This document shows, piece by piece, positions 10,471 through 31,460 of a stretch of DNA of 34,125 nt (the stretch's first letter is position 1; every line of letters starts with the position of its first letter). The stretch is taken from IMG/VR virus record IMGVR_UViG_3300017971_000569, positions 1-34,125 of that record; one strand, 5' to 3'. The notes under the pieces were generated by a model. That model searched no databases, had not been told where the DNA came from, and was given only the letters and a program-made list of their open reading frames with translations. The stretch is from a virus. The position numbers and the translations under genes were made by a program.

Positions 10471-10511
10471 GTAACTAAATAGTAACGGAAAAGTAACTCT
10501 CCTAGCGTCAC
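10471..10511 (+). repeat. Iteron-like element, copy 1 (GTAAC x3 at 11-bp spacing, then AGCGTCAC)
   Basis: GTAAC occurs at 10471, 10482 and 10493, exactly 11 bp apart (one helical turn), and AGCGTCAC follows at 10504, again 11 bp on. A second element with the same register is at 14314-14354 (29 of 41 positions identical by eye). Helically phased short repeats are typical of multi-subunit DNA binding. Candidates are TerS packaging sites, an activator array or recombination borders; none is proven. Confidence 0.6.
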
Positions 10512-10512
10512 A

Positions 10513-10555
10513 ACCAAGACAAAAGACCCTCTTTCCTTGAGACTTTTGTCTTGGT
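10513..10555. repeat. Perfect 13-bp inverted repeat in late leader
   Basis: ACCAAGACAAAAG (10513-10525) and its exact reverse complement (10543-10555) are separated by 17 nt. Neither strand has a U-tract, so it is not a standard terminator. In leftward mRNA it forms a long hairpin between the early terminator and the first gene. It may be an RNA control element or a protein site. Confidence 0.6.
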
Positions 10556-10583
10556 CTGGGAACAAGTTTCTCGAATCATAACG

Positions 10584-10614
10584 AAAAAAGCCCCAACCGG
10601 TAAGGAAGGGGCTT
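10584..10614 (-). terminator. Early intrinsic terminator downstream of late promoter
   Basis: On the minus strand: arm AAGCCCC (10614-10608), loop, arm GGGGCTT (10594-10588), then a run of T. It lies roughly 65-95 nt downstream of the predicted leftward start and ahead of all late genes, the same order as lambda pR'-tR'. Read-through would need antitermination. Confidence 0.7.
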
Positions 10615-10685
10615 GACTCGACCCATAGGGCATGGGATTTTAGATGCCAACAGGGCTGGACCCCCTATTGGCGAGCCGCTCACTC

Positions 10686-10715
10686 AGTATATACCAATCC
10701 TCGCTAAAAAGTTAA
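10686..10715 (-). promoter_or_regulatory. Predicted leftward late promoter
   Basis: On the minus strand: -35-like TTAACT (10715-10710), 16-bp spacer, -10 TATATA with extended TGG just upstream (an overlapping TATACT is also present). The predicted start is near 10678. It is the only good sigma-70-like match ahead of the late operon. Predicted from sequence only. Confidence 0.5.
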
Positions 10716-10910
10716 TAGCCGACGCCTATCGGTGTTGTCCATGAAAGTAGGCTATAGGCCCAGGGCATACGAGGGACCACACCGCGCACTGTCCGCCCTG
10801 GCAATTGGAACCATGTGGATTGGGGCAACCTAGTACAGCGACCGGTCTTCCGACCATGCTGGAAAGGGCGGTGGGTATGCCTGGAATCTTGCGATAGCCA
10901 GGATCAATCG
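10716..10910. other. Unassigned non-coding block between divergent control elements
   Basis: No convincing ORF on either strand. Short dyads are present: CCAGGGC (10760-10766) with GCCCTGG (10795-10801), GGTC-TTCC-GACC near 10843, and CCTGG/CCAGG near 10881-10902. GC content is high. It could hold a structured RNA, a packaging site or activator sites. I see nothing that decides. Confidence 0.3.
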
Positions 10911-10933
10911 AACTTCAAATTACGCTTTAAAAA

Positions 10934-10976
10934 TACAATGTAGCGCATTGGCGATCAGTATCGGACTAATGCGCTA
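10934..10976 (+). promoter_or_regulatory. Candidate promoter/operator of the rightward island
   Basis: TACAAT (10934-10939) is a good -10 match; the -35 is poor. Immediately downstream lies a perfect 9-bp inverted repeat, TAGCGCATT (10941-10949) with AATGCGCTA (10968-10976), and nested nearly concentrically within it CGAT-CAGT-ATCG (10952-10963). The dyad would cover the transcription start, as expected for an operator. A weak -35 suggests activator dependence. It precedes the AlpA-like gene, which may be the regulator. Confidence 0.5.
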
Positions 10977-11012
10977 AGATTGAGTCTGGCGAAATAAGGA
11001 AGGGTTTGAAGC

Positions 11013-11246
11013 ATGAAACTTCTCAAGTTGGCTGACGTTTCAAGGATTTTTGGGTTCTCGAGAACATCGATCTACGAACAAATCAGGGACGGAGTATTCA
11101 CGAAGCCCATCAAGGTCGGACCAAAGACATCGCGCTGGCCGGATTTTGAGGTAGAGCAGATCATCAAAGCGCGTATCTCTGGCAAGACAACCAAGCAAAT
11201 CAGAGCCCTCATCACCAGCCTTCACGCCTCGAGGGATAGCCTGTGA
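11013..11246 (+). CDS. AlpA-family transcriptional regulator / excisionase-like HTH
   Basis: 77 aa, the normal AlpA size. MKLLKLADVSRIFGFSRTSIYEQIRDGVFTKPIKVG is a winged MerR/AlpA-type helix-turn-helix: helix (LADVSRIFG), recognition helix (SRTSIYEQIRDG), then the wing with a conserved FxxPIKVG-type strand and SRWPDFEVEQII. Family members activate or repress phage and prophage genes or assist excision. It is the first gene of the plus-strand island and directly follows the operator-like dyad, suggesting self-regulation. No integrase is visible, so an excisionase role is less likely here. Confidence 0.8.
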   Translation: MKLLKLADVSRIFGFSRTSIYEQIRDGVFTKPIKVGPKTSRWPDFEVEQIIKARISGKTTKQIRALITSLHASRDSL

Positions 11247-11413
11247 GGGTCCGGGCAGACAGGAGAAAGGTGGATGAGCCGACGTGGAAAGGTATGGGCA
11301 AACCAATCCTGACCGTTGTCATCGGAGGGACCATCGCGATCATCGCGCTTATGGCTGCCGGCCACCTTGTTGGGCTCGTCTTTGGCGCCATATCAACGTG
11401 GGTGACGCCATGA
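11243..11413 (+). CDS. Small single-span membrane protein
   Basis: 56 aa from GTG 11243, overlapping the previous stop (GTGA), with GAGG upstream; its own stop overlaps the next ATG (ATGA). About 17 charged N-terminal residues precede a hydrophobic segment (residues ~20-50, ILTVVIGGTIAIIALMAAGH and LVGLVFGAI), long enough for one or two passes. The overlap at both ends supports a real gene. Possible roles include superinfection exclusion or host membrane modification; unproven. Confidence 0.6.
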   Translation: MRVRADRRKVDEPTWKGMGKPILTVVIGGTIAIIALMAAGHLVGLVFGAISTWVTP

Positions 11414-11877
11414 GTAGTCACGCAAAAGGGTTCGCTAGCGGATACAAGCGTGACGCAGAGCATGCTGATTTCGAGGAGCGTGTCGAAATAGGCAGGGTGA
11501 GACGCAAGCGCAAACAGGCAAAGCACTTCATTTCAAAATTCATCTGGTTCTGCGTAGTGCGCGAATGCCAACTCTACCGCGGCGAAGAAAAGTACCATCG
11601 TGTCATGGCAATGACCACGAAGGAATTGCGAATGACGAACGCAAAACTGTCGAATCAGTTCTTCACCCGGCTCGCAAAAGATGAAGACACCAGACTCTGG
11701 TATTGGAAAGAAATAGATCCAAAAGGAAATGGGAGGCTCATCGGCAACCTCTACACTCACTTTGAAGATCAAGTGTTCAACAAGTGGGATGTTCTCGAGC
11801 GTTACGCAGTATCTATTGGACTCACAGTGAAACGACACAAAGGAGACGACGATGGACAATCAACACAGAAAGATTGA
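11410..11877 (+). CDS. Unknown basic protein of the rightward island
   Basis: 155 aa from ATG 11410 (ATGA overlap). It is rich in Lys, Arg and aromatics (RRKRKQAKHFISKFIWFCVV, NQFFTRLAKDEDTRLWYWKE, THFEDQVFNKWDVLERYAV). There is no signal peptide; it looks cytoplasmic. It lies directly before the Acb2-like gene and overlaps it by 26 nt. No family recognised. Confidence 0.55.
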   Translation: MSSHAKGFASGYKRDAEHADFEERVEIGRVRRKRKQAKHFISKFIWFCVVRECQLYRGEEKYHRVMAMTTKELRMTNAKLSNQFFTRLAKDEDTRLWYWKEIDPKGNGRLIGNLYTHFEDQVFNKWDVLERYAVSIGLTVKRHKGDDDGQSTQKD

Positions 11878-12076
11878 TGGGTACAGAGAACTGAACGAAA
11901 ACGAGATCGATTGCATGAACGCAATCAAGGATATTGCGAACAAGGTCGGCAACCTCATCATAAACCTTGAGCGCGATATGACGACCGATGGGCGATGGGT
12001 TGCGATCGGCAAGAACGACCTTCAGAAGGGATTCATGGCGCTTGTGCGATCGGTTGCCAAGCCGAACAGTTTCTGA
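11852..12076 (+). CDS. acb2: Acb2-like anti-CBASS protein (cyclic-nucleotide sponge)
   Basis: 74 aa; AAGGAG lies 7 nt before ATG. The helical hairpin reads GYRELNENEIDCMNAIKDIA, a middle helix (VGNLIINLERDM), and DLQKGFMALVRSVAKPNSF at the C terminus. This is the pattern of the Acb2/Tad1 hairpin family: GY-x-T/N-E-E-I, N-x-I-K, and a final helix with A-x-R-A/S-V-x-x-P. T4 Vs.4 shares GYK and NAIKD in the same order. Tyr11 and Lys26 fall on the residues I recall as ligand contacts in Pseudomonas phage PaMx33 Acb2. Known members bind cyclic di- and trinucleotides made by CBASS and stop effector activation. Assignment is from pattern recall, not a search. Confidence 0.8.
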   Translation: MDNQHRKIDGYRELNENEIDCMNAIKDIANKVGNLIINLERDMTTDGRWVAIGKNDLQKGFMALVRSVAKPNSF

Positions 12077-12101
12077 GACCAGAGATCCGCGGAGAGAGTC
12101 G

Positions 12102-12269
12102 ATGACTGAGAAGTTCAAACCATCAGGCGTGTACAACCGAACAAGGCAGGACGGCAGGATCTACGAGGTAACGAAGAACTGCCCGTGCGATGACTGCAAA
12201 TTCAGGGTTGCATGTGTATCTGAGTGTGTGACTTTCACCCAATGGACAAAGAAGGCCGGCCGCAAATGA
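12102..12269 (+). CDS. Small Cys-rich protein, possible zinc knuckle
   Basis: 55 aa from ATG 12102 with GGAG 7 nt upstream. Five Cys in the second half (NCPCDDCKFRVACVSECV) suggest a metal site. Tyr/Arg-rich N terminus, basic C terminus. Its stop overlaps the next start (ATGA). Function unknown. Confidence 0.55.
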   Translation: MTEKFKPSGVYNRTRQDGRIYEVTKNCPCDDCKFRVACVSECVTFTQWTKKAGRK

Positions 12270-12595
12270 AGAAACCAAAAACAGAAGACGTTGAACACCA
12301 AACCATGGATGCCAACACCTTCCATGTTAATGAACCACCAAGGGACTTCCTTGAAATGCTCGAGAAGACCAGGGAGGTGCTCAAGGAAGTCAGGAGTAAG
12401 CAACTCGATGTTGAGTCGGCAAGAGGCTCCAAAGGCGACACGCCGCACTGCAGTCAACCAAGGGACTACGCTACCCAGGAATCACCAGAGCAACCGGCAG
12501 TGAGCATAAGCGTTAAGTGCGGAATCGTCGCACTCGTCTCCCTGTCGTTCGGCGCAATCATCGGTGTGGCTACAACCTACCTCTTCAGACTGTAG
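12266..12595 (+). CDS. C-terminally anchored membrane protein
   Basis: 109 aa from ATG 12266 (ATGA overlap). A polar cytoplasmic part with a short coiled coil (FLEMLEKTREVLKEVRSK) is followed at residues ~78-107 by one hydrophobic span (VKCGIVALVSLSFGAIIGVA then TTYLF) ending two residues before the C terminus. This is a tail-anchored layout. Phage proteins of this shape may alter the host envelope, but no family is recognised. Confidence 0.55.
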   Translation: MKKPKTEDVEHQTMDANTFHVNEPPRDFLEMLEKTREVLKEVRSKQLDVESARGSKGDTPHCSQPRDYATQESPEQPAVSISVKCGIVALVSLSFGAIIGVATTYLFRL

Positions 12596-12624
12596 TGAAT
12601 ATGATCTGAAAGGAAAAAGCTAAG

Positions 12625-12654
12625 ATGACAAAACAAAGGGGAATTGGGAAATGA
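12625..12654 (+). CDS. Possible 9-codon leader ORF
   Basis: ATG 12625 with AAGGA about 10 nt upstream encodes nine residues (MTKQRGIGK) and stops at TGA 12652-12654, overlapping the next start as ATGA. It may couple ribosomes to the following gene. Too short to judge as a product. Confidence 0.25.
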   Translation: MTKQRGIGK

Positions 12655-12983
12655 GTGGAAAAGTTGATTTGGTGGAGTCGATACTCTTTGAACGTGACGG
12701 GCTGAGGGCAGAGATCGAAGAGCTTCGCAAACAACTTCAAGCAAGCTATGAGCAGGAGGTTAATACAAGAGGCCGCACAGAATTACGTGAGGCACGAGAC
12801 CGATGGATGAATCGTGCGCGAATTGCTGAGAAACAAATAGAGGCGCTGAATAAAGCACTGAAACGAATAGCGGATGCTGACGGAAGCTACTCGGCCGTTG
12901 CCTTGCAGAAGGTCGCACGTGAGGCAATCGAGTCCGCTATGGGAGACACCGAATGTGGCCAAAAAGCATTGGGAGGAAGGTGA
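12651..12983 (+). CDS. Coiled-coil protein
   Basis: 110 aa. Heptad-like Leu/Glu/Arg spacing (LVESILFERDGLRAEIEELR, then ARIAEKQIEALNKALKRI) predicts a long coiled coil over residues ~5-80; the end is VAREAIESAMGDTECG. The start overlaps the nine-codon leader. Its last coding stretch (GCTATGGGAGA-ACCGA) is nearly repeated at the end of the next gene, hinting at local duplication. Confidence 0.5.
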   Translation: MSGKVDLVESILFERDGLRAEIEELRKQLQASYEQEVNTRGRTELREARDRWMNRARIAEKQIEALNKALKRIADADGSYSAVALQKVAREAIESAMGDTECGQKALGGR

Positions 12984-13198
12984 TGGAACCTGACCGCGAT
13001 GGGGGACACATGAAACAAACACTGGCCCAAGAATTCCAATGGTCATTAATGGCGGTTCTAGCTCACGCGCAAGATATGTGCAGCGCAGGAAGCTATAAGA
13101 AAAAACAGACGCAGATGCTGCACGAAGACTTAACCAGACAGTGGAGAAAGCTTCGCGATGAGCTAGAAACAGCTATGGGAGAAACCGATGTCAAGTGA
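12983..13198 (+). CDS. Small hypothetical protein
   Basis: 71 aa from ATG 12983 (TGATG overlap; AGGAAGG just upstream). Mostly helical: TLAQEFQWSLMAVLAHAQDM then LTRQWRKLRDELETAMGE. A start ten residues later (MKQT) is also possible. Ends with the same ATGGGAGA-ACCGA stretch as the previous gene. Unknown function. Confidence 0.5.
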   Translation: MEPDRDGGHMKQTLAQEFQWSLMAVLAHAQDMCSAGSYKKKQTQMLHEDLTRQWRKLRDELETAMGETDVK

Positions 13199-13400
13199 TA
13201 TGTATGCGCTGCCCGATAGGTCGGTGACGCCAGATCCTGCAAAAGCGGCGGAGGAGTGGGCTAAAGCGTTTTATCAAGCAAAAGACGCAATTAACAGGAT
13301 CTTGCCAGTACCTTCTATGGTTCTTAACCATCTTCCGGTAAGGGATCTGAGGGAGATTATTGAAGAATGCAAAGAAGTCATTAAGCTTGGAGAAAAATAA
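13188..13400 (+). CDS. Small hypothetical protein
   Basis: 70 aa, GGGAG 7 nt before ATG, overlapping the previous gene by 11 nt. Helical and amphipathic (AAEEWAKAFYQAKDAINRIL; LREIIEECKEVIKLGEK). No family recognised. Confidence 0.5.
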   Translation: MSSDMYALPDRSVTPDPAKAAEEWAKAFYQAKDAINRILPVPSMVLNHLPVRDLREIIEECKEVIKLGEK

Positions 13401-13456
13401 TGGAACATGACCGCAAGAATAAATATGAGGATAACTTAGATGATGAAGCGCTTTGA
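13400..13456 (+). CDS. Possible 18-codon ORF
   Basis: ATG 13400 overlaps the previous stop (TAATG). The 18 residues begin MEHDRKNK, resembling the MEPDRDG start of the gene at 12983, so it may be a remnant or a coupling peptide. It overlaps the next gene by 17 nt. Weak evidence as a functional product. Confidence 0.25.
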   Translation: MEHDRKNKYEDNLDDEAL

Positions 13457-13871
13457 TCCGGTCGATCATGACGACTTTGGCTATGACTGTATGGGTTTTA
13501 TGGCGGAGACAGAGCTTGGGGATTGGGTTAGCTATGAAGACGCTGAGGCAGAGATCGAGGCGCTGAAAGATAAGATTGAAACCATAACCAAACAACGCGA
13601 CCGCATGTACGATGACATGTTGCTGTGGCGAGGTATCGACCGCGACGGCGGAGACACACCATGCAAGGCCTGCTCTGGCGCTGGAGTCCGAGCATACGGC
13701 GATACAGCAACATGGCGAGGTGGCATTGGAGGGCAGGTCATTACAAATGACATTTGCGACAAATGCTGGGGCAGCGGAAAAGCTAAAAAACCGTGGTTAA
13801 ACCTGCGGCGTTTATCGCGCCAACAGCGCAAGGATCGATCGATTCATCGACTGAAGAGGAATCAGGCGTGA
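13440..13871 (+). CDS. Zinc-finger/coiled-coil protein
   Basis: 143 aa; GAGG about 10 nt before ATG. An acidic N-terminal part, a coiled coil (AEAEIEALKDKIETITKQRD), then two DnaJ-type CxxCxGxG-like motifs (CKACSGAG and CDKCWGSG, residues ~75-115) likely binding zinc, and a basic tail. Such fingers occur in phage Q-type antiterminators and in DnaJ; here there is no J domain. A nucleic-acid or protein-binding role is likely. Confidence 0.55.
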   Translation: MMKRFDPVDHDDFGYDCMGFMAETELGDWVSYEDAEAEIEALKDKIETITKQRDRMYDDMLLWRGIDRDGGDTPCKACSGAGVRAYGDTATWRGGIGGQVITNDICDKCWGSGKAKKPWLNLRRLSRQQRKDRSIHRLKRNQA

Positions 13872-14317
13872 AACCAAAAATCAAACTGCTGTCCTGGGAA
13901 ATCCTCATCGCAGCACACGCCGGCTGCATGCGTCAGGTCGAGAACCTGAGAAGCCAGAGGGTGCCAGCATACGGGGCAGGCAAACTCGCAGACTGGCAAC
14001 TCCACATCGAGGGCGTACTGGGCGAGTACGCATTATCCAAGTACCTGAATATCCGCTGGGAAGGAAAAGGAAAACTCAGGGCTCCAGATGTCGGCCCCGT
14101 CGACGTGAGAACCCGAAGCAAACACAACTACGAACTGATCCTGCACAAGGAAGACGAAGACGATCGCCAATTCTGGCTGCTCACCGGAACCAACGGAGAG
14201 TACATCGTCCATGGCTACATCCTCGGCTCAGACGGAAAACGTGAGGAATACTGGAAAGACCCGGCCGGCGGCAGGCCCGCATACTTCGTCCCACAGGATA
14301 AGCTCACCCTCGAGTAA
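13868..14317 (+). CDS. Possible PD-(D/E)XK-like protein, last gene of the island
   Basis: 149 aa from GTG 13868 (GTGA overlap). A helix with Glu (HIEGVLGEYALSKYL) precedes APDVGPVDVRTRSKHNYELI; E...D...DxR resembles the active-site spacing of PD-(D/E)XK nucleases with Arg in place of Lys. The C-terminal half is beta-rich (FWLLTGTNGEYIVHGYI). A nuclease-like fold is a guess. Its stop codon lies inside the second iteron-like element. Confidence 0.45.
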   Translation: MKPKIKLLSWEILIAAHAGCMRQVENLRSQRVPAYGAGKLADWQLHIEGVLGEYALSKYLNIRWEGKGKLRAPDVGPVDVRTRSKHNYELILHKEDEDDRQFWLLTGTNGEYIVHGYILGSDGKREEYWKDPAGGRPAYFVPQDKLTLE

Positions 14318-14354
14318 CACTCGCGTGACGAAAAAGTAACGCACGAAGCGTCAC
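14314..14354 (+). repeat. Iteron-like element, copy 2 (GTAAC-GTGAC-GTAAC at 11 bp, then AGCGTCAC)
   Basis: GTAAC at 14314, GTGAC at 14325, GTAAC at 14336 and AGCGTCAC at 14347, each 11 bp apart: the same register and orientation as copy 1 at 10471-10511. The longest shared blocks are AAAAGTAAC and AGCGTCAC. CGTGACG (14324-14330) and CGTCACG (14349-14355) also form an inverted repeat. The element overlaps the stop of the last island gene. Confidence 0.6.
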
Positions 14355-27377: not shown

Positions 27378-28069
27378 GCCCTACCCCTGCGGTCGCGCTC
27401 TGCAGGCTGGTTGAGATGAACAGTAACCAGATCAGACAGCTTCACCCGCTTGAACGCCTCATCGGCAGCCTTCAGTATCCCCTCGGCAAACTGCTGTAAC
27501 TCAGGGTTGCGGCGGGCCAATGTAGCAAGACCCTGGATCAACACAGAGTCGTGCGCCTCGCGCTGAGCCTTCTGCAGGCGCAGCCGTTCTATCCGCTCAC
27601 GCATTTCCTCCATTTCCTGCCCATGCCTGATCTGCTCGCAAGGGGTACCAAGCGCAGCATCCTTGAGCATGACGTTCTCGATCTTGACCTTCTTGAAATC
27701 CTCTATGGCGCCAGCCAGGGTGACCTTCGTGTTTTTCAGCACTGACTCCAAGCGATCGACCTTCTCGTACTCAGTGCGCAACTGAGCTATTGCCTCCATC
27801 GCAAGATAGGTCATCGCATCTTGAAAATCAGCATTAAGGGATTCACCATCCTCGATGCTAATTCCAATCCTGTCTGGATCCTCAGTGTGAATCGACAAGA
27901 GCAAAGTCCACTGAAATTCCCACGGGTCTGCATCGGCAGTCACGCAAGCCATCCAATCATCCTGATCTTCAGAATCCATCTGCTCAAACTCGACCGGCTT
28001 GATCGTGAAATAGTCGATCAGGCATTGGGAAAAATCGTTCACCTTCTGGGTGAATGTTTCTTTGTTCAT
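27374..28069 (-). CDS. Coiled-coil protein of the replication cluster
   Basis: 231 aa from ATG 28069 (GGAG 8 nt upstream, AGGAGTGCA block). Acidic N-terminal half, then a long coiled coil (LRTEYEKVDRLESVLKNTKV and EEMRERIERLRLQKAQ, residues ~95-180). The SD block and ATGA overlap show coupling with the P-like gene. Unknown function. Confidence 0.55.
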   Translation of the reverse strand: MNKETFTQKVNDFSQCLIDYFTIKPVEFEQMDSEDQDDWMACVTADADPWEFQWTLLLSIHTEDPDRIGISIEDGESLNADFQDAMTYLAMEAIAQLRTEYEKVDRLESVLKNTKVTLAGAIEDFKKVKIENVMLKDAALGTPCEQIRHGQEMEEMRERIERLRLQKAQREAHDSVLIQGLATLARRNPELQQFAEGILKAADEAFKRVKLSDLVTVHLNQPAERDRRGRA

Positions 28070-28647
28070 TTTTTGCACTCCTGGGTAAAGCCTTCGGCCT
28101 TTCTCTTCTCGTAATCGCCGCCGCGGCCAAAGGCGAACTCATCGGCAGCAACACGTTTCGGTGGGACGTACTCCGGATCCTCCTTCGTGCCCTTGCGGAG
28201 GTTGTGCTTGATGATCGAGATCGCGGCCAGGGCCTTATGCTTGCTCGACTTCGGTTTCGGTAATGCCGGAGGAAATCGCTTGTGCGCTTCCGTTGCTGGC
28301 CTATTCTGCCGGCAAGAGGCACGAAACTGCGGCGCGCTCGGCGGCATATCCGGCAGACGAGTCAAAGCATCGGCTATTTCTTTCGGCTCGACCCCCGCCA
28401 GAACCTTCGCCCAAGCCTGCATTTTGTCTTCAGTGTCACGCTGGCTCGTCGTCTGGGAGTTCCAGACATTGCCGTACAGCTCACCAAACCGCTTGAAGAT
28501 CCCGATGACATAGGCCCGCTCAAGGCCGACCCAGCTCCTTGTCGAGTTCGGCGTTGAGGTAGTCGCTGATCTGCTGGTTATGCTCTCTTGCGCTCGTCTT
28601 GCCAGTGCCCCGGCCGGCTGTGGCTTGCTGTCCCGATCCGTTTCCAC
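28066..28647 (-). CDS. P-like replication protein (helicase loader candidate)
   Basis: 193 aa if translated from GTG 28647, which has GGAG 7 nt upstream but overlaps the O-like gene by 128 nt. The convincing part begins at residue ~41: GLERAYVIGIFKRFGELYGN then WAKVLAGVEPKEIADALTRL and a basic C-terminal half (FPPALPKPKSSKHKALAAIS). This matches phage replication proteins that follow O-like genes and handle the host helicase (lambda P, G40P-loader-like). The N-terminal 40 residues are low-complexity and may not be native. Confidence 0.65.
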   Translation of the reverse strand: METDRDSKPQPAGALARRAQESITSRSATTSTPNSTRSWVGLERAYVIGIFKRFGELYGNVWNSQTTSQRDTEDKMQAWAKVLAGVEPKEIADALTRLPDMPPSAPQFRASCRQNRPATEAHKRFPPALPKPKSSKHKALAAISIIKHNLRKGTKEDPEYVPPKRVAADEFAFGRGGDYEKRKAEGFTQECKK

Positions 28648-29383
28648 GATTTTTCTCCCAAGTGCGGACTGCGGCTTTCCAGTCCTTCATCGTTTGCTTG
28701 TTTGTCAGCACCCAGCCACGTGCCGTGTAGTAATCCACGAAAGCCTCTGGATCCACGGTGTTCCCTCGTTCGGCACAGTAGGCGTGAACTTCAGCGACTG
28801 TTGGTGGCCTTTGCCTTTCGGCGACTTTTTTCTTTGGAACTACCGTAGGTAGTTCTTTCTTTATCTCTTTCTCTTTCTCTTTCTCTGTCGTCACAGAGCG
28901 TCTCACTTCGTCACACTTCGTCACACCTCCTTCGCTCTTGGTCTTTTGTCTGTCTCTCCATGCAGCCGTCCTTTCTTTCCCTTCCTTTGCTGGCTGCTTC
29001 GGAACTTCATTGAAATCATTGAAGAAATCTGGAAAAACAAGACCGTCTTTGGTCTCTTTTGCCCAACCAACACGGCACATTGCACCACCAAATCCTGGGC
29101 AGTTTGTCATAAGGTCAATGAAGGAATCTGTTGCCCCTGGAAGTAGGCAATCACCATTTTCTTGGGGCTCTCCCCGGTGTCTAACAACAGACCATGTGAC
29201 GGCCAATCCACCAATCGTGACGAGGCGTAACACATGATCCGTCACATTTACGTCACCATCGTTACCTTGGGTACAATGGTCATGGAATGAGTCAGACGTT
29301 GACAGCTCAATAATCATGCCCAGAACATTCGGGTGATTGAATAGTGATGAGCGCATTTTTATCCAGTCGTCTTTGCTCGCCAT
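28520..29383 (-). CDS. O-like replication initiator
   Basis: 287 aa from ATG 29383, just after the previous stop. The N-terminal domain (MASKDDWIKMRSSLFNHPNV, VTDHVLRLVTIGGLAVTWSV) is a phage O/DnaD-type winged-helix region. A charged KEKEKEIKKE linker follows, then DPEAFVDYYTARGWVLTNKQ and MKDWKAAVRTWEKN, the DnaD-like domain that recruits the helicase loader. Like lambda O, the gene contains tandem repeats and a low-complexity A/T-rich stretch. Confidence 0.75.
   Translation of the reverse strand: MASKDDWIKMRSSLFNHPNVLGMIIELSTSDSFHDHCTQGNDGDVNVTDHVLRLVTIGGLAVTWSVVRHRGEPQENGDCLLPGATDSFIDLMTNCPGFGGAMCRVGWAKETKDGLVFPDFFNDFNEVPKQPAKEGKERTAAWRDRQKTKSEGGVTKCDEVRRSVTTEKEKEKEIKKELPTVVPKKKVAERQRPPTVAEVHAYCAERGNTVDPEAFVDYYTARGWVLTNKQTMKDWKAAVRTWEKNRGNGSGQQATAGRGTGKTSAREHNQQISDYLNAELDKELGRP
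28837..28926. other. Candidate replication origin inside the O-like gene
   Basis: Four tandem 10-bp units at 28887-28926 (GTCGTCACAG, AGCGTCTCAC, TTCGTCACAC twice) share CGTC-CA. Next to them is a polypyrimidine microsatellite (28856-28886; CTTTCT-type units) and a perfect GAACTACC-GTA-GGTAGTTC palindrome (28837-28855). Iterons followed by a low-complexity, easily melted tract within O is the lambda ori plan. The 10-bp period is not a codon multiple, so protein repetition does not explain it. Confidence 0.55.
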
Positions 29384-30331: not shown

Positions 30332-30384
30332 ACACTCTATTGCAATAGACCGCTATTTAGCGTAAACATGCAATCTCAGAGTGT
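30332..30384 (+). promoter_or_regulatory. Rightward early control region with nested palindromes
   Basis: Two perfect 12-bp palindromes, CTATTGCAATAG (30337-30348) and CGCTATTTAGCG (30351-30362), lie inside the outer inverted pair ACACTCT (30332-30338) and AGAGTGT (30378-30384). A tentative rightward promoter is TTGCAA (30340-30345), 17 bp, TAAACA (30363-30368); the second palindrome would occupy the spacer. Likely operator sites for an unseen regulator. Confidence 0.45.
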
Positions 30385-30404
30385 CTAATTTTAGGAGAAC
30401 ACGC

Positions 30405-31460
30405 ATGACCAGAGAGCTTGCTGTCTGGGAAAAGGCCATAGTAGCGGCCAAGGATCGTTTTTTGACGATCCATTCCCAGGAAAAGGAACCATTTTCAAAC
30501 TGGGACAAAGAGAGCATCTTTGTAAACCAGCGGATGCGGCAGAACGAAGCACTTCAGAGGTGCCCGCCGCAGTCCATCCAGACCGCAGTCATCAGCGTGG
30601 CGACTGCCGGCCTCTCCCTCGACCCAAACCTCAAGCTGGCATACCTCGTCCCGCGTGACGGGCAATGCACGCTCGACATCAGCTACATGGGCCTTGCCCG
30701 GTTGGCCGAAATGTCCGGGGCAATCGATTACGTCCGGGCTGACGTGGTGCGCAAGGGCGACCGGTTCATCTGGCGCGGCTTGGACGAAAAGCCGATCCAT
30801 GAGATCGAGGATCCATTTGGCGAGGAAGACCGGCCGATTGTCGGGGTCTACTGCTACGTGATGACCAGCAAAGGCGCCTACCTCGCCGGAAAGATGTCCA
30901 AGTCGGAGATCGACAAGGTCAGGCAGGCATCCAAGGCCCCAAATTCCCCGGCCTGGACGAAGTGGTACGGGGAGATGGCGAAGAAGGCGATCATCAAGCG
31001 TGAGTCAAAGCTGTGGCCCCAGGCGGCCCGCGAGAAGGTCGCTGGCGCCCTTGGCGTGCTCGAGGCTACCGAGGGGCTGAAGGACATCACCCCGGAAGAC
31101 ACGCAGCACTATGGCGACGTCAAGCGGCGCTCGGAGGCGGCAAAGGCCGAAGAGAGACCGCAAACTGAGGAACGATCTCAGGAGCGCCCCCCGATCGAGG
31201 GTGAGTTTGAAGAGATGCAGGACACCCAGTCGGGGCCGGAGCCAGAGAAAACGCCGCCAGCGGCCGCTCAGGGCGACAGAGGTGGTCATCTGCCCATGTC
31301 TGAACCCACCAAGCACATCATGCAACGAAAGCTGAAGGCGATGAACCTGCAGGAGGCAGACCTGTTCAATGCAATGGAGATTGACGGTTGGGAAGGTCTG
31401 CAGCAGTCGGATGCACAGGGTTGCATGGACTGGATCTCGAGTCAGGGAGGTGAAGGATGA
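30405..31460 (+). CDS. recT: RecT-family single-strand annealing protein
   Basis: 351 aa from ATG 30405 (AGGAG 8 nt upstream). Core: NEALQRCPPQSIQTAVISVA, TAGLSLDPNLKLAYLVPRDG, CTLDISYMGLARLAEMSGAI, DYVRADVVRKGDRF, then WTKWYGEMAKKAIIKRESKL, all typical RecT/Bet signatures. The C-terminal ~100 residues are Glu/Pro/Gln-rich, as in tail regions that bind partners. With the exonuclease two kilobases on it forms a recombination pair for phage DNA repair and annealing. Confidence 0.9.
   Translation: MTRELAVWEKAIVAAKDRFLTIHSQEKEPFSNWDKESIFVNQRMRQNEALQRCPPQSIQTAVISVATAGLSLDPNLKLAYLVPRDGQCTLDISYMGLARLAEMSGAIDYVRADVVRKGDRFIWRGLDEKPIHEIEDPFGEEDRPIVGVYCYVMTSKGAYLAGKMSKSEIDKVRQASKAPNSPAWTKWYGEMAKKAIIKRESKLWPQAAREKVAGALGVLEATEGLKDITPEDTQHYGDVKRRSEAAKAEERPQTEERSQERPPIEGEFEEMQDTQSGPEPEKTPPAAAQGDRGGHLPMSEPTKHIMQRKLKAMNLQEADLFNAMEIDGWEGLQQSDAQGCMDWISSQGGEG

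Follow-up and report, generated by a model that had tools for sequence, protein, structure and literature searches.

Tandem repeats within an O-like initiator gene probably mark a phage replication origin of lambda-like build

The window, i.e. the whole stretch of DNA analysed here, is one virus record of 34,125 bp. On its minus strand it carries an O-like replication initiator gene and, next to it, a gene for a putative helicase loader; two repeat clusters, a purine tract and a palindrome lie within the initiator gene:

28520..29383, minus strand: O-like replication initiator gene, 287 aa, beginning MASKDDWIKMRSSL
28066..28647, minus strand: next gene, putative P-like helicase loader (phrog_109, E 6.7e-5; phrog_1524, 2.6e-7)
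28887..28926, minus strand: linker iteron cluster of four 10-bp units with the core GTGAC(G), unit 3 being degenerate (GTGAGACG)
28854..28886, minus strand: strand-asymmetric tract, purine on the coding strand, encoding EKEKEKEIKKE; proposed DNA-unwinding element
28837..28855, no strand assigned: 8-3-8 palindrome 3' of the tract, GAACTACC-3-GGTAGTTC
29196..29257, minus strand: second cluster, four GTGACG/CGTCAC copies within the coding sequence of the N-terminal domain

The O-like protein could not be assigned to the lambda O family; it matches PHROG families 2509 (4e-17) and 9474 (6e-12), both described as replication initiation protein, as well as 15768 and 28809, and finds no match in Pfam. 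Its N-terminal part matches epsilon15-type replication proteins, and both alignment and tree reveal the DWIKMR N-terminal domain; the start codon of the gene was set at the start of this family. For residues 182-246 in the C-terminal part, on the other hand, identity to sequences of gut phages and of a Ruminococcaceae contig reaches up to 64%. The gene hence looks chimeric, with a DWIKMR-family N-terminal domain joined to a C-terminal domain of other kin near the array. In the structure model, residues 11-120 are of high and most of 156-184 of low confidence, i.e. the N-terminal domain is modelled as folded and the linker as disordered. A sequence search of the PDB with the initiator gave no match, and Foldseek returned only weak winged-helix matches from the PDB (Crp/Fnr winged helices, E about 0.3), such that the predicted DNA-binding role of the N-terminal domain is based mainly on the analogy to lambda and on a repeat core that tracks this domain. 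The neighbouring gene matches the P-like loader family phrog_109 weakly.

Read along the coding strand from 28926 to 28887, the array consists of GTGTGACGAA GTGTGACGAA GTGAGACGCT CTGTGACGAC, which is translated as VTKCDEVRRSVT and represents residues 153-166 between the N- and C-terminal domains, where the linker is modelled as disordered. The adjoining tract of 33 nt is pyrimidine on the plus strand throughout, except for one A, and has an A+T content of 23/33 (70%). The palindrome has perfect arms; as it is one of nine palindromes with perfect 8-bp arms and a loop of up to 10 in the record, it is by itself only modestly unusual. Four tandem units, a purine/pyrimidine tract and an 8-3-8 palindrome had all been reported in a preliminary description of this DNA, and all three were found again, with the qualification that the third unit is degenerate and that the tract contains one exception base.

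For judging the repeats, a count statistic on 7-mers proved too weak (p about 0.3 for the window and about 0.4 for lambda) and its place was taken by an out-of-frame self-alignment score with purine runs masked. The array reaches a score of 32, which is matched by 3/10,000 synonymous shuffles and by 0/5,000 shuffles of codon order, and it is the strongest such region of the record, the next best scoring 22. Since the period is 10 bp, repetition in the protein is excluded as the cause, as had been argued before. In addition, no other 6-mer in the record is as clustered as CGTCAC, of which the O-like gene has seven copies where synonymous shuffling gives 1.75 (p=5e-5), and a mixed 6-mer of any kind becomes as frequent in only 1/400 shuffles. 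The GTNAC count of the window gene alone is borderline and not significant (9 vs 6.6 expected, p=0.06), because Val-Thr always yields GTNAC.

The CGTCAC copies fall into two groups, namely the array and a cluster at 29196-29257, with copies starting at 29196, 29217, 29240 and 29251. In the first 300 nt of the gene, CGTCAC occurs four times compared to 1.0 under synonymous shuffling (p=0.0056). The second cluster is situated upstream in the gene, about 290 bp from the array, and occupies the place within the gene that the GTNAC cluster takes in the relatives. A pair of CGTCAC sites 11 bp apart (29240, 29251) had been noted earlier; the pair is real, but it is no stray pair and instead forms part of this conserved four-copy cluster. 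No meaning can be attached to the recurrence of TTCGTCAC at 14325 that had likewise been pointed out. Its sites number four in the record, two in the array and single ones at 14325 and 19728, and as 1.2 are expected by chance and two of the four copies lie in the array, the copy at 14325 carries no weight. The suggested check by GC skew did yield a cumulative minimum at 29266, but the latter is confounded by gene orientation; third-position GC skew runs through the array without a break, and the GC skew of epsilon15 has no minimum at its initiator gene. GC skew and the copy at 14325 therefore contribute little.

To see the gene among its kin, an O-like ORF was taken from 177 of 180 fetched loci and the set was cut to 117 at 70% identity, the repeats having played no part in the retrieval. 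Out-of-frame repeats at p<=0.01 are found in 42 of the 117 O-like genes, compared to 4 of 200 control ORFs from the same loci, and repeats whose score 0/1,000 shuffles can reach in 28 of 117 compared to 2 of 200; in 64% of the surveyed genes, the self-alignment test finds no out-of-frame repeat that is significant. Among genes with z>4, the shifts peak at 10 bp (16 genes), 11 (19), 20 (13), 22 (10) and 23 (9), while most other out-of-frame shifts are represented by about 1-4 genes each (5 bp, however, by eight and 67 bp by five); in-frame peaks also occur, the largest at 12 bp (11 genes). In the 42 genes, the first three 15-bp bins downstream of the array (45 bp) are higher in A+T by 11-13 points, with no excess upstream, in a sample in which purine tracts are over-represented as the loci were retrieved by conserved peptides including EKE-rich ones. 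The best palindrome arm within 110 bp downstream of the array has a mean of 6.3 compared to 5.0, and no palindrome excess was seen in three other segments. When the 42 genes were searched for further copies of the linker unit outside the array, only a mild excess was obtained (44 vs 31.6), which indicates that two clusters are not a general trait; they are seen in DWIKMR and ydaU-like genes.

A layout of two clusters about 200-310 bp apart was found in three lineages with three different cores, namely the clade of the window (GTNAC), the epsilon15 clade (GTCCGCA) and Rac ydaU together with Xanthomonas phage Olaya (CGTTAC). Of 79 DWIKMR genes, 22, including that of the window, contain 9-19 GTNAC cores in two groups, at about nt 106-186 and 442-524 of the gene, and the other 57 contain 0-4. 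GTNAC encodes Val-Thr in one frame and [RSGC]-[ND] in another, and GTAAC or GTGAC gives a stop in the third; the cores of the clade use frames 0 and 1 about equally. Here the rest of each gene serves as the control, and the z values are inflated, since both cores were chosen on the very sequences that were then tested and since relatives share ancestry. The pooled GTNAC counts of 14 representatives are 79 vs 42.5 (z 13.9) in the N-terminal cluster and 83 vs 50.7 (z 11.6) in the linker cluster, compared to z 2.3 between the clusters and -0.4 in the C-terminal part, and copies outside the Val-Thr frame still give z 13.8 and 12.0 in the N-terminal and linker cluster, respectively; in the 57 genes of the epsilon15 clade, GTCCGCA/TGCGGAC occurs 206 times vs 24.1, with pooled z of 12.1 (N-terminal), 20.6 (linker), -0.7 (between) and 0.7 (C-terminal). 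The N-terminal cluster of the GTNAC clade is housed in an insert in its N-terminal domain. A tree on 95 N-terminal columns, from which insert and linker were excluded, separates the two clades (97/95) and places the window on a long branch within the GTNAC clade (98/88), so that the core follows the N-terminal domain. The 10-bp spacing of the window nevertheless differs from the 5/7-bp pairs of its GTNAC relatives.

The classic system for comparison is ori-lambda, in which four 18-19-bp repeats lie inside gene O next to a 38-49-bp AT-rich, strand-asymmetric part (PMC4488673; PMC3349717); the origins of Stx phages contain six iterons mid-gene O (PMC7466680). In our self-alignment, the O gene of lambda obtains a score of 27 at shift 20, a value reached by 1/1,000 shuffles, and its order of parts is four iterons, a purine tract coding for K/E/R/D and an inverted repeat; the latter is imperfect and is missed by our perfect-arm palindrome test, hence its position after the tract was read from the sequence. 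The proposed origin of the window resembles ori-lambda in its location in the linker of the initiator gene, in its four direct repeats (the third degenerate) followed by an adjacent AT-rich, strand-asymmetric tract and a palindrome, and in the P or putative P-like gene next door. It differs in that its units are 10 bp long and without internal inverted symmetry, unlike the 18-19-bp lambda iterons, which possess such symmetry, in that its core is unrelated and its initiator lacks a match to the lambda O family, and in the extra cluster in the N-terminal coding sequence, which has no counterpart in lambda O, where only the linker bears a cluster.

The initiator gene of epsilon15 (NC_004775, 35179-35856) shares the DWIKMR N-terminal domain, the purine tract and the two in-gene clusters of one core, which in the window are the CGTCAC/GTGACG copies at 29196-29257 and 28887-28926. 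In each epsilon15 cluster, two copies in direct orientation with a spacing of 11 bp precede inverted copies. Its core, GTCCGCA, is however different from the GTNAC of the window clade, and the N-terminal insert is absent. The NC_004775 record bears no origin annotation, and a literature search, mainly among openly available papers, turned up neither a description of an epsilon15 origin nor one of the two-cluster layout. Rac ydaU of E. coli is likewise an initiator-like gene upstream of a loader gene, the DnaC-like ydaV, and has a purine tract and two clusters of CGTTAC/GCGTTA (GCGTTA 7 vs 1.8), as has Olaya with regard to the clusters; compared to the window, its core differs and its N-terminal domain is only distantly related. 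The Rac prophage has an active origin, oriJ (PMC3945230), and the clusters and purine tract of ydaU (L182 1201-1989) represent a candidate for its position.

Repeats that exist at the DNA level in several frames, at a conserved position and with helical spacing, together with the downstream AT tract and palindrome and a core that tracks the N-terminal clade, argue from sequence that these repeats are in all probability a phage replication origin, located inside its own initiator gene and lambda-like in build. An origin-like nature had been proposed before and is now the best supported reading, given the kin of the initiator, the P-like neighbour, the ori-lambda anatomy and the recurrence in O-like genes. 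How the initiator would bind, melt the DNA and load the helicase so that initiation occurs, and what the second cluster would do, we infer from these data and from lambda as follows. The O-like protein would bind the GTNAC-core iterons via its N-terminal domain, and copies of the initiator would fill the linker array, whose units are one helical turn apart. The filled array could then strain or open the adjoining AT-rich purine tract, to whose opened strand the host helicase would be delivered by the C-terminal domain together with the P-like neighbour. The second cluster may be bound by the same initiator and serve looping, handcuffing or autoregulation.

The most serious competing view, albeit an improbable one, is that the repeats are an operator at which the initiator or another regulator controls transcription of the gene, with the origin elsewhere. 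It is true that the N-terminal cluster lies 60-190 bp past the gene start in the family and that operators of iteron plasmids commonly resemble their iterons. Its AT-rich tract and palindrome, however, make the linker cluster origin-like, it lies deep in the gene, and the same order of parts is a proven origin in lambda (PMC4488673; PMC3349717). An operator role of the N-terminal cluster alone would be compatible with the origin reading as well. That the repeats stem from low-complexity slippage or from the codons chosen in a charged linker, and have no function of their own, appears less probable still: charged linkers are common and [GAAAGA]n is a microsatellite tract, but purine runs were masked, the repeats lie in different frames and exceed synonymous shuffles, helical-turn spacings are favoured, and the same core occurs at two fixed places in the clade and not between them.

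About as improbable as slippage, or marginally more so, is an antisense intrinsic terminator on the plus strand made up of palindrome and pyrimidine tract. A terminator scan did list 28836-28856 with the tail TTCTTTATCT; this tail is weak, though, the pattern is one of eight in 2.6 kb (2.7 expected), and the iterons would be left unexplained. Terminator and origin function could also coexist. Sites for host proteins such as CRP or DnaA are hardly credible. TGTGA resembles a CRP half-site and the weak PDB fold matches are Crp/Fnr winged helices, but neither cluster contains a CRP-like TGTGA-N6-TCACA (up to 2 mismatches) or a DnaA box (up to 1 mismatch), and the core varies with the phage N-terminal domain instead of keeping a fixed consensus.

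Going beyond the origin as such, one could speculate, as a proposal that we hold with somewhat more doubt than confidence, that DWIKMR-type initiators possess a bipartite in-gene origin, in which the DNA site of the protein occurs twice in its own gene, once in the linker and once in the sequence coding for the predicted DNA-binding domain, and in which the initiator bridges both to control initiation. If true, the origins of many uncharacterised phages could be read from the initiator gene by synonymous shuffling, and the same gene would allow the cognate DNA site to be predicted. A DNA site and a protein-coding sequence that overlap twice per gene would further provide a clean system for following the joint change of site and domain, and epsilon15 and Rac render the idea of a bipartite origin testable in strains kept in the laboratory.

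Elsewhere in the record, a block of small plus-strand genes at about 10500-14300, which includes an AlpA/excisionase-like gene (11013-11246), has a G+C content of 0.48-0.53, below that of its surroundings. Lastly, a RecT-like gene (phrog_148) lies on the plus strand at 30381-31460, and a stretch of 116 bp in this region shows 73.5% identity to phi80 rec.
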